From assembly GCA_020073185.1 (NCBI GenBank), contig JAIQFT010000009.1:1-64000 (forward strand): DNA of 64,000 bases. Direction: 5' to 3'. Both the position numbers and the translations under genes were made by a program. This document shows, one piece after another, positions 50,181 through 52,836 of this stretch. Origin of the DNA: Terriglobia bacterium. Its GTDB lineage: Bacteria; Acidobacteriota; Terriglobia; Terriglobales; Acidobacteriaceae. The number at the start of each line of letters is the position of its first letter. Position 1 is the first letter of the stretch. Under the pieces are notes generated by a model that saw only the letters and a program-made list of their open reading frames with translations, made no database searches and was not told where the DNA came from.

Positions 50181-50525
50181 CTATCTTTCAATCACCCGTG
50201 GCACTTTGAAGAACGCTCCATCCGTCTCCGGCGCGTTCTCCATCACCACTTCGCGCGGCAGCGATGGCCCGGTCTTGTCTTCGCGCATCGCATACGCAAA
50301 GCGCGCCGTACCGGCTTTGCTCTCGTCAATACCGTAGCGATCGGAGGTCTGCGCCATGGGTTCGACGTTGGAAGTGTCAAGCTCGTTCAGGCGATCCACA
50401 TAATCCAGGATGGAATTCAAGTCCTTAACCATGCGCGCGCGTTCGTCGTCGGTGAGTTCCAGGTTGGCCAGCTCGGCGACGTAGAGGACATCTTTCTCGG
50501 TTATCGGTTGTCGGTTATCGGTCAT
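50181..50525 (-). CDS. gatC: Aspartyl/glutamyl-tRNA amidotransferase subunit C
   Basis: 114 residues. VLYVAELANLELTDDERARMVKDLNSILDYVDRL and the downstream NVEPM are conserved in GatC, the linker that clamps GatA to GatB. Its first eight residues (TDNRQPIT) are encoded by a GGTTATCGGT-type micro-repeat, so the N-terminus may be recent or the start may lie later, although no other start is near. Upstream of gatA in the same operon, after a DciA-like gene. Confidence 0.92.
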   Translation of the reverse strand: MTDNRQPITEKDVLYVAELANLELTDDERARMVKDLNSILDYVDRLNELDTSNVEPMAQTSDRYGIDESKAGTARFAYAMREDKTGPSLPREVVMENAPETDGAFFKVPRVIER

Positions 50526-50529
50526 CGGG
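50493..50529. repeat. CGGTTATCGGTTGTCGG micro-repeat overlapping the gatC start
   Basis: Four imperfect copies of a CGGTTAT/CGGTTGT word. The tract covers the gatC start codon and first codons. Confidence 0.6.
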
Positions 50530-50832
50530 TTAGCTGCCGGTGCGCTGGGCGCCGCCGGATTCTTGGGCGGTCACGAACTCGATGCGCCTGACGTTGGCAA
50601 ACTGGTTGAGCGTGGAAAGGTAACGCGGAACCAGTGCGAGCAGCTCGCGACGCCACTGCGCGTCCGGCACCTCGACGTGCAGCACGCCTTCGCTGTAGCC
50701 GAGTGCACGGGTACGGGCGGCCACCGTGGCGCCGCAGGCCAGAGGCCAGCCATGCAGCGGCGCTTCCGCCGCCGGTCCACGCCGTATGGCATCGACCACG
50801 ATCTTCTGCAATCCGTCGCGCGCGCTCCGCAC
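50530..50832 (-). CDS. DUF721 (DciA-like) protein
   Basis: 100 residues from GTG 50832, which has a GAGGAGG ribosome site 4 bases upstream. The DciA/DUF721 domain reads as VVDAIRRG, WPLACGATVAARTRALGYSEGVLHVEV and WRRELLALVPRYLSTLNQF. DciA proteins help load the replicative helicase DnaB. It begins a minus-strand group DUF721-gatC-gatA with only 4 bases to gatC. Confidence 0.8.
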   Translation of the reverse strand: MRSARDGLQKIVVDAIRRGPAAEAPLHGWPLACGATVAARTRALGYSEGVLHVEVPDAQWRRELLALVPRYLSTLNQFANVRRIEFVTAQESGGAQRTGS

Positions 50833-50940
50833 CCACCCTCCTCGCGAGACTGGGATTCTACCACTGGTCACCTGGGCGCGATTACTGGCGTAATTTGCAA
50901 GTTTTTCCGCCCGCTGTAGGATGCGTTTCGGGATGAATCC

Positions 50941-51066
50941 ATGAAGAACACGCACAAGCCAAGGACATGGGCAGAAGCCGCGGACACTCGTGTGTGGGAT
51001 CTCCTTACCTTCGGCCTGATCCTGAGTCTTTCGGCGCTGGCGTACCTCTGGTTCGTTCCCCGTTAG
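50941..51066 (+). CDS. Tiny single-TM protein A
   Basis: 41 residues, too short for most gene finders. A basic N-terminus (MKNTHKPRTW) leads to TRVWDLL and one membrane helix (LTFGLILSLSALAYLWF) ending VPR. It is paralogous to the protein encoded at 51301-51417, with the shared pattern TRVWD-x2-(T/S)F-x4-LS-x-LAY-x-W-x-VP. N-in, C-out topology is predicted. A real terminator follows at 51154-51179. No function known. Confidence 0.65.
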   Translation: MKNTHKPRTWAEAADTRVWDLLTFGLILSLSALAYLWFVPR

Positions 51067-51153
51067 GTCCTAGGTTGGATCACTTGACCGCCGGGCTGCG
51101 CCGCAACTTGGGGGAGGGGCGGCGCAGAGTCGGCGGCAAACTTTGGAAACGAT

Positions 51154-51179
51154 GGGCACGGCGCGAGCTGTGCCCTTTT
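51154..51179 (+). terminator. Intrinsic terminator
   Basis: GGGCACGGC-GCGA-GCTGTGCCC followed by TTTT: a 9-bp stem (one G-U) with a GNRA tetraloop, 88 bases downstream of tiny protein A. Confidence 0.75.
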
Positions 51180-51300
51180 AGTTGCCATTTCGTTCCACTT
51201 CGACGGTTACCTCGGGGCAAGGCCGGCTGACGGGTACAGTGGCCGGAGGTAAGGTTGTCACCGGGGCAGGCTTGGGACACCATCTGCGTGGGGGTAGCTT

Positions 51301-51417
51301 ATGCCGATCGTTGATTCGCGCACGCCGCTCAACGAAACTCGGGTCTGGGATTACATCAGCTTTGCGATCCTGGTGCTGCTGTCCGTGCTGGCCTATACCT
51401 GGCTGGTCCCCCACTAG
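51301..51417 (+). CDS. Tiny single-TM protein B
   Basis: 38 residues: MPIVDSRTPLNE, then TRVWDYI and one membrane helix (SFAILVLLSVLAYTWLV) ending PH. A GTGGGGG ribosome site lies 7 bases before the ATG. The same TRVWD...LAYxWxVP signature as protein A argues that both are translated and have been kept by selection after duplication. The stop codon directly abuts the 3' end of the converging cca gene. Confidence 0.7.
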   Translation: MPIVDSRTPLNETRVWDYISFAILVLLSVLAYTWLVPH

Positions 51418-52836
51418 CTAGGCACGGCGCTCCAGGGGATATTCGCGCCGGACCAACTCGATTGCCTGTTCGCGCGTGGTGACGCGTCCCTCGAGCTGCG
51501 CGTCTTCCACCGCGGCGAGGATCTCCCGAAACAACGGCCCGGCCCGGTAGTCCATGGCAAGCAGGTCGTGGCCGGTGATCAGCGGGCGGGGACGGATCTC
51601 CTCCGGCGGGGTCTCCGCCAACCGCTGCCGCAGAGATTCGTAAATGGAAAGATCGCCGTGGCTGGCGAGGCAGTCAATGCGGTGCATCTCCAGGTGCTCG
51701 GCAAACTGCGGTTGGCGCATGAAGCGTTTCAGGGTCGAAGGGTTCATTTTCAGCGCGTCGGCAAAGCGCATGTGCTGGCCGACGAGCGCGGCAATCTGGT
51801 GCGTGTCGTCGTTCGACATGCACAGGCGGCGCGCAATGCCCCCCGCCATCGCCACTCCAACCTCCACATGATGATCGAAGCGGATGCGGTCGGGCGCGAC
51901 GCGAAACGTGGGCGGCTTGCCGACATCATGCAGCAACGCGCCCCAGGCGAGCGTGCGCGAAGCGCCCGACGGCAGCATTTCCAGCATGAGCAACGTGTGC
52001 ACCCAGACGTCGCCCTCGGGATGGAACTGTGGCGGCTGCTCCACACCCTTCATCTTCTCAACTTCCGGCAGGACCTCGTGCAGCAGGCCGGGTTCATCCA
52101 GCAGTTCGAAGGCGCGCCGCGCATGGCCTTCGGTGAGCATCTTGGTGAGCTCGTCGCGCACGCGCTCGCGGCTGACCTGCGCGATTTGGGGCGCGACCTG
52201 CCGGATGGCGCGCATGGTTTCCGGTTCGATTTTGTAGCCGAAGCGCGCCGCGAAGCGCACCGCGCGCAACAGGCGCAGCTTGTCTTCGTCGAAGCGCTTC
52301 TCGGGGGAACCAATCGTCCGGATGATCTGGTGATGCAGATCGCCGAGCCCGCCGACGTAGTCGAGCACCTGGTTGGTTGTTGGGTCGAGCAGCAGGCCGT
52401 TGATGGTAAAGTCGCGCCGCTGCACGTCCTCGCGCGGGTCTTGGGAGTAGGTGACCTGGTCGGGGTGGCGGCCGTCGGTGTAGAGACCGTCGGAGCGGAA
52501 GGTGGCCACCTCAATTGATCTGGTGATCGGATGATCGGACGATCTGGCGATCGATTCGTTTGCTGCAGCGTCTTCTAGATCACCCGATCGCCCGATCGCC
52601 CGATCGCCCGACTCCACCGGCACCAGCACCACGCCGAACTGCGCTCCCACCGCCCAGGTTTCGGGAAAAATGCGCATCACGTCTTCCGGATGGGCATTGG
52701 TCGAGACGTCGTAGTCGGCGGGTTCGCGTCCGAGCACCAGGTCGCGCACACATCCGCCCACCAGGTACGCCTGGTAGCCGCGCTCGCGCAGCGTGCGCAC
52801 GATTTCGATGGCGGCGGGTTTGGCGGAGTCAGACAT
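51418..52836 (-). CDS. cca: CCA tRNA nucleotidyltransferase
   Basis: 472 residues. The nucleotidyltransferase head has LVGGCVRDLVLGREPADYDV (GG and the DxD pair), EVATFRSDG, QRRDFTINGLL and KLRLLRAVRFAARFG; an HD domain (LLHDVGKP) follows. It adds or repairs the 3' CCA of tRNAs. About 33 extra residues between VVLVPVES and EVATFRSDG are encoded by a GATCGCCC micro-repeat tract (52515-52612), an in-frame insertion into a loop between strands. Otherwise normal length. Confidence 0.93.
   Translation of the reverse strand: MSDSAKPAAIEIVRTLRERGYQAYLVGGCVRDLVLGREPADYDVSTNAHPEDVMRIFPETWAVGAQFGVVLVPVESGDRAIGRSGDLEDAAANESIARSSDHPITRSIEVATFRSDGLYTDGRHPDQVTYSQDPREDVQRRDFTINGLLLDPTTNQVLDYVGGLGDLHHQIIRTIGSPEKRFDEDKLRLLRAVRFAARFGYKIEPETMRAIRQVAPQIAQVSRERVRDELTKMLTEGHARRAFELLDEPGLLHEVLPEVEKMKGVEQPPQFHPEGDVWVHTLLMLEMLPSGASRTLAWGALLHDVGKPPTFRVAPDRIRFDHHVEVGVAMAGGIARRLCMSNDDTHQIAALVGQHMRFADALKMNPSTLKRFMRQPQFAEHLEMHRIDCLASHGDLSIYESLRQRLAETPPEEIRPRPLITGHDLLAMDYRAGPLFREILAAVEDAQLEGRVTTREQAIELVRREYPLERRA
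52515..52612. repeat. GATCGG/GATCGCCC micro-repeat inside cca
   Basis: Imperfect copies of a GATCGGAT/GATCTGGC word at 52515-52556 and CGATCGCC at 52578-52612, separated by about 20 bases. In frame with cca; adds Arg/Ser/Asp-rich residues. Confidence 0.75.

Follow-up and report, generated by a model that had tools for sequence, protein, structure and literature searches.

Introduction

KdpF and MgrB are small proteins of a single helix, each acting on a larger partner in the membrane. AcrZ and similar small proteins of one helix are likewise described as acting on a larger membrane protein (PMC7267776, PMC11539335). For CydX, the account in PMC4325964 reports a conserved tryptophan at the N-terminal end of the helix, conserved residues along one face, a cytosolic N terminus, and a Y-x-x-W-x-x-G-x15-E/D motif, in a protein tied to cydAB. 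Small proteins limited to one genus are very common, which makes the find reported here a modest one: of the 96.7 million families with at least three members in a global catalogue, 52.6 million are described as specific to one genus (PMC11364881).

Here, we analyzed two short open reading frames in a window of 64,000 nucleotides (positions 1 to 64,000 of contig JAIQFT010000009.1 of a Terriglobia bacterium; genome G000), which an earlier note on this DNA had described as a tandem pair of tiny membrane proteins with a shared signature. We conclude that the two, termed A and B, are real paralogous genes. Together they make up a family that is itself new but belongs to an established kind, that of small single-pass membrane proteins; no model in four family libraries matches A or B.

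Results

Two small genes lie between dciA and cca

Gene A (positions 50941 to 51066, plus strand) encodes a predicted single-pass membrane protein of 41 amino acids, MKNTHKPRTWAEAADTRVWDLLTFGLILSLSALAYLWFVPR, and gene B (51301 to 51417, plus strand) one of 38, MPIVDSRTPLNETRVWDYISFAILVLLSVLAYTWLVPH; frames, lengths, and common residues were as the earlier note had given them. When 100 relatives were searched with B as the query, both frames were found in the same order and place in all four genomes of the genus, G000 included. A was free of indels and stops and had 41 codons in each of them, and B was intact throughout, its length of 38 or 41 codons differing only in the variable N terminus. 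Probable ribosome sites on the plus strand, identified from sequence, are GGGATGA for A (50930 to 50936; GGGGTGA in G003) and TGGGGGT for B (51289 to 51295). GTGGGGGT precedes the start codon of B. Five or six G in a row lie upstream of B in all four genomes, which bears out the ribosome site proposed there previously; a G-run also precedes the related gene of genome G018, described below. A and B each have start signals of their own and, probably, separate promoters.

The divergent neighbor is dciA (DUF721; 50530 to 50832, minus strand), the product of which matched Pfam DciA with an E value of 3.3e-11. Its start probably lies near 50832, judged from alignment with relatives; the open frame reaches 50955. 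The convergent neighbor is a gene for a cca-type tRNA nucleotidyltransferase (51418 to 52836, minus strand), and its stop codon adjoins that of B. Genes near A and B are gatA, gatC, dciA, and cca, with dciA, gatC, and cca all on the opposite strand. Short tandem heptamer-like repeats (TCGGTTATCGGTTGTCGGTTATCGGTCATCGG) were seen at the gatC start (50497 to 50528), and TTCTGGC repeats lie 3' of B in G003 (locus L005).

A and B share a polar motif and two tryptophans

Over the segment from [DE]TRVWD to VP, A and B of G000 are identical at 14 of 26 residues, with a DNA identity of 63%. Nucleotide differences are concentrated at third codon positions (8, 6, and 15 at positions one, two, and three), and different codons encode 8 of the 14 common residues. 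None of 2,000 simulations yielded a pair as similar as that observed. This combination of core identity, DNA divergence, third-position bias, and simulation outcome identifies the two as paralogues. Moreover, their ungapped BLOSUM62 score was 88, compared to a best of 44 in 3,000 block-wise shuffles of B. Only five positions are invariant across nine proteins (A, B, and the G018 relative): M1, T13, W16, D17, and W34 in B numbering. The stretch TPLNETR-[VI]-WDYI-[ST]-F is nearly constant in B, variation being found at the start of the protein and inside the helix. Of the signature described earlier, TRVWD and the other elements are present in A and B of the window, but two of them vary among A proteins: LAY may be LAC, MAC, or LTY, and the C-terminal VP may be TP or AP.

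Selection is clear for B and weaker for A

Pairwise dN/dS between genus members, taken as the ratio of the computed dN and dS values, was ∼0.1 to 0.3 for B, a range indicating clear purifying selection, and ∼0.4 to 0.75 for A, indicating weaker selection. The B values refer to the 31-codon core from TPLN on, so that omission of the variable first residues favors conservation, whereas those for A cover the whole frame. We also placed the observed substitutions at random, in 4,000 runs per pair for five of the six genus pairs. The observed similarity of the B proteins was reached in none of the 4,000 runs for four of the five pairs and in 121 for the closest pair. For A, it was reached in 2073, 53, 3, 166, and 2 of 4,000 runs; the first value, from the closest pair (G000-G001), is not significant, and the third is from G000-G003. 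None of the five alternative frames of B stood out in the G000-G003 pair. One reverse frame of A scored 19/1500 in the same pair, which speaks against clean specificity. In codon usage, the proposed frame beat the five others for A and B alike. The simulations support both frames, B more firmly than A, and as judged from these comparisons B shows a strong coding signal and A a moderate one. Coding selection, as the earlier note had claimed it, is supported to that extent by dN/dS and simulations alike. The loss of frame in relatives that the note had named as contrary evidence did not occur, both frames being kept in all four members.

High GC content yields many spurious open frames, and A and B could in principle be two of them; the absent signal for A in the closest pair (2073/4000) and its reverse frame at 19/1500 would fit such an origin. 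For B it is already refuted. Conservation in four of four genomes, selection on B, and paralogy with third-position bias all oppose it, and we regard chance frames as extremely unlikely overall. A may, however, be decaying, given its fast evolution and dN/dS of up to ∼0.75.

A conserved hairpin and a terminator follow A

The segment 3' of A folds as a three-tier RNA hairpin (51086 to 51141, core 51096 to 51127, plus strand), the tip of which, ACUUGGGGGAG, is invariant; the hairpin is conserved in the four genomes with z scores of −5.9, −4.8, −4.3, and −3.8. The sequences of the outer stems differ, with pairing kept in each genome; covariation of the core in the four rows was not above shuffles (124/500). 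An intrinsic terminator follows A and the hairpin (51154 to 51179, plus strand; predicted site 51154 to 51175). Terminator-like sites were about equally common in the region and in shuffles (3 versus a mean of 2.2, standard deviation 1.6). The terminator, called strong in the earlier note, was found again, and we credit it because it is conserved in all four genomes. Hairpin and terminator together (51086 to 51179) constitute a candidate 3'UTR-derived small RNA.

The pattern of tip and inner stem had one exact match in G000 and one more with 3 mismatches. Beyond the genus, the hairpin model matched 29 of 150 genomes at an E value of up to 1; no convincing copy was found in other genera among these 150 genomes, with 11 matches inspected. 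The 11 fetched loci resembled coding sequence or unrelated hairpins, and the best outside match (G444; E = 2.3e-4, 37 bits) overlaps a 129-codon frame on the opposite strand. Only below-threshold matches were obtained in Rfam. The RNA-model search also brought up a different recurrent hairpin in three genera (L224, L229, and L232 in G052, G025, and G115), which lies beside TTGGCGAA...CTCCGGGG(A)AGGAGG and near genes that by eye resemble those for outer membrane lipoproteins. The mRNA of B was no more strongly folded than shuffles (z = 0.5); its predicted fold pairs the ribosome site with the 3' end over a long range, the fold itself being not unusual.

The position of the hairpin, within ∼20 nt 3' of A and ahead of the terminator, would suit a leader frame whose translation controls hairpin and terminator, with the peptide of minor importance and B as the sole working protein. 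The faster evolution of A agrees with this. A nevertheless retains its 41 codons in four of four genomes, along with a helix and the motif that it has in common with B, and its frame is supported at larger distances (3/4000 for G000-G003); moreover, the start signals of B lie downstream of the terminator. We judge a leader role to be very unlikely.

Type I toxins are often intergenic or duplicated. Here, tandem paralogues lie in an intergenic gap with a structured RNA between them, as might be expected if A and B were small membrane-damaging hydrophobic peptides restrained by RNA. Their size and single hydrophobic helix match the usual description of such toxins (PMC8309996), and duplicated type I loci are described (PMC3919570). 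However, hairpin and terminator share the strand of A and B and are not antisense to them, and no antisense promoter was seen, although the crude scan used found no promoter at all. Nor is the mRNA of B folded beyond shuffles, and the best-conserved part is the polar TPLNETRxWD, rather than the helix and a cationic end. Taken together, a type I toxin-like module seems distinctly unlikely.

Relatives outside the genus are rare

Among 398 genomes of the family, a profile of the nine sequences matched five strongly, G018 and the four members of the genus. The remaining 393 gave no strong match; the family is patchy. The G018 match had an E value of 1.6e-17 in a profile that included G018 itself, and B alone matched it with 0.10. 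The G018 protein, MSLRTKVRAQSWETRAWDFITVAVMLVTAFSCAIWMVRS, retains ETR-x-WD-F-I-T and a tryptophan at the right distance. Its gene is located outside the dciA-cca gap, downstream of an FAD/NAD oxidoreductase gene and convergent with what we take to be a sugar-nucleotide gene. Upstream sequences of G018 and the B genes aligned weakly, the best being a 12-base exact match to B of G003, equaled in 1 of 200 shuffles. The search of relatives for the signature, which the earlier note had proposed, thus found it kept in the genus and rare elsewhere.

The next profile match (G039; E = 7.8e-5) was rejected because it sits in a 781-codon frame. In 399 genomes of the class, no further convincing member was found among the part of the weak matches inspected. 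Ten loci from the B search of 100 relatives, five from the family profile search, and four from the class search were inspected; except for G018, each frame was part of a larger gene, was broken, or lacked a usual start. A family-like sequence at L190 (G667; LEANKFTVRWAAQQLESRYWDFLIFSAVVTVLMFLELLMPGR; E = 2e-4 per genome) lacks a usual start codon upstream of the helix. A and B matched no family in Pfam or NCBIfam (E up to 5) or in PHROGs or PADLOC (E up to 1), and a profile of a wider sequence set had no match among PDB sequences. NapE and PsaX matched two relatives only, weakly and below the Pfam gathering threshold (G018-NapE, E = 0.26; G035-PsaX, E = 0.0019), with A and B themselves unmatched; both matches probably reflect helix composition.

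The dciA-cca gap holds one-helix frames in other genera

DciA was searched for in 61 genomes (47 matched), and by profile in 300 (173 matched). Stretches from 106 genomes, a part of all those with a DciA match, were surveyed, and in 53 of them cca followed dciA on the same strand within the stretch. A small frame on the plus strand, with 25 to 100 codons and a 19-residue hydropathy above 1.9, was present in 8 of these 53 gaps, from four genera in all: those of G024, G033, G035, and G138 and of the four genus members. The cut was not clean, since the best other frame reached 1.88 (G215) and B of G002, read from an upstream start, 1.77, its A having passed. Gaps of at least 150 nt numbered 28 of 53, and 20 of the 28 were without a qualifying small frame.

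Relative to the cca stop, the end of the last small frame lay at −1, +3, +3, and −103 nt in G000 to G003 and +3, −12, −2, and −6 nt in G024, G033, G035, and G138; seven of the eight frames therefore terminate within 12 nt of it. B's position at the cca stop is held by one-helix hydrophobic frames in three further genera (4 genomes), a finding that is new. Read from the first possible start, the G033 frame is 80 codons long and that of G138 is 90; in our judgment, later starts are likelier (∼45 codons for G033, 39 to 43 for G138). D-x19-P spacing is common to A, B, and the frames of G024 and G033, and IYFFY-x-P to those of G035 and G138, which belong to the same genus. From position and architecture, the gap frames of these four genomes are likely orthologous to B, a relationship unproven by sequence. 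In the gaps of G117 (L144) and G161 (L148), an ATTACCA-type site (GATTACCACCGTACATTGACC / TATTACCAAGGTGCATTGACC) precedes a different small gene, whose product of ∼92 amino acids contains two C-x-x-C pairs; the G161 protein had no Pfam match above the cutoff.

Putative regulatory sites upstream of the small genes

A palindrome, GATTACTGGCGTAATTTG, upstream of A (50880 to 50897, plus strand) is a possible operator. ATTAC-N4-GTAAT was found there in all four genomes, as three distinct sequences, followed by TAGGAT, which may be a −10 element. The site upstream of B is weaker (TTAC...CAA or GTAA). A crude sigma-70 consensus scan of the locus found no promoter of any kind. In overlapping loci totaling 735,627 bases, a strict pattern matched nothing but the small-gene promoters from which it had been drawn, a circular result. 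When a matrix of the three distinct A sites was used to rank 101 stretches upstream of dciA in other genomes, some of which were included twice, the small-gene loci of G138, G033, and G035 ranked 2, 4, and 5. Rank 1 was L148 of G161 and rank 3 was L121, where no small gene was seen; the small-gene locus of G024 (L184) fell outside the top 15. A common regulator of the gap small genes may be suggested by this ranking as a lead, not as a finding.

A loose form of the motif was present in 233 of 398 family genomes and is therefore unspecific; in each genus genome, it occurs once, at the A site. At 30 loci fetched for the loose motif, no hydrophobic small frame (cut 1.7) was found within 250 nt downstream. 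With up to 2 mismatches, GATTACNNNCGTAATTTG occurs at 8 places in G000, exactly only at A. No convincing member of a regulon was found among the other places, at least three of which are inside long open frames. Palindromes of the TTACCCCCGTAATTTG type, which match the A site of G002 exactly or almost exactly, were observed at L246, L251, and L257 (G339, G269, and G187), ∼94 nt upstream of a gene resembling one for a response regulator (by eye, from the first 45 residues).

These observations would accommodate a wider scheme, in which A and B would be a module of two single-helix proteins specific to the genus, paired on one partner or with each other, with the hairpin tuning it as a trans-acting or protein-binding 3' RNA and the dciA-cca gap serving as a recurrent home for regulated microproteins behind a TTAC-N4-GTNA-like site. 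We consider this scheme rather unlikely.

Predicted structure and proposed function

AlphaFold2 predicted one helix for B, spanning residues 7 to 35, with a mean pLDDT of 78.5 from an alignment of four sequences, in agreement with the single transmembrane helix claimed earlier. In this predicted helix, W16 and W34 would lie on one face, as they are 18 residues, or five helical turns, apart. The N terminus of A and B is likely cytoplasmic, judging from the tail of A, which is rich in Lys, Arg, and His, and from the end after the helix, which has only two or three residues. On these predictions, and being coding and shorter than ∼60 amino acids, A and B are small single-pass membrane proteins.

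We propose, with a probability of about 0.55, that A and B each serve a larger inner membrane partner as a small anchored helix, in an accessory or modulating role. Constraint on TPLNETRxWDYI in B appears to exceed bare hydrophobicity, as expected of a binding surface, and together with the two tryptophans on one face it resembles the pattern of a partner-bound helix, as in CydX. The frames of like build in G024 and G033, and the related ones in G035 and G138, all located in the same gap, also count in favor of the proposal. Such a protein would be tail anchored and ∼40 residues long, with a polar N-terminal tail, a T-[RK]-x-W-D interface motif, a membrane helix of ∼19 residues, and a W-x-x-P end. 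A and B would insert with the tail in the cytoplasm, bind a larger inner membrane protein, and stabilize or tune it, as modeled on CydX, KdpF, AcrZ, and MgrB. B is the more constrained and probably the older copy, and A a faster-evolving duplicate seen in this genus alone.

Against this proposal, we count that no operon partner at the locus indicates a target, that the family is patchy and A evolves fast, and that a partnerless role would leave similar traces; the AlphaFold model is silent on partners. A and B might then be free-standing membrane microproteins, related to lipids or stress or self-oligomerizing, with no large partner and possibly paired with each other. The lack of an adjacent partner gene, the tandem paralogues with the same two tryptophans, and the patchy distribution of related frames would all fit. 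Nothing speaks against it directly; the strong juxtamembrane constraint, however, argues for a specific contact, and we hold the free-standing role to be possible, if doubtful, and prefer the modulator proposal.

Discussion

The locus illustrates how a 40-codon frame can become a firm gene once a few congeners are compared and its position, along with a small RNA, proves to be conserved. If a partner is found, A and B would represent a microprotein-controlled membrane system in Terriglobia. In the open-access PMC text, none of the papers listed was on the family, and none was found that prints TRVWD, ETRVWD, NETRIWD, or TRIWDY.

Among described systems, the type I toxins Hok, Ldr, Ibs, TisB, and Fst are likewise described as short and hydrophobic with one helix (PMC8309996), but the conserved part of A and B is a polar segment and the structured RNA at this locus is on the same strand. 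AcrZ, KdpF, and MgrB differ in that no Pfam or NCBIfam match links A or B to them, a comparison by family models only. From CydX, A and B are set apart by the lack, by eye, of the YxxWxxGx15(E/D) motif and by a neighborhood of gatA, gatC, dciA, and cca, not cydAB. With CydX, as PMC4325964 describes it, they share a length of ∼40 amino acids, one (here predicted) helix, a conserved tryptophan at the helix start, low overall conservation, and probably a cytosolic N terminus.
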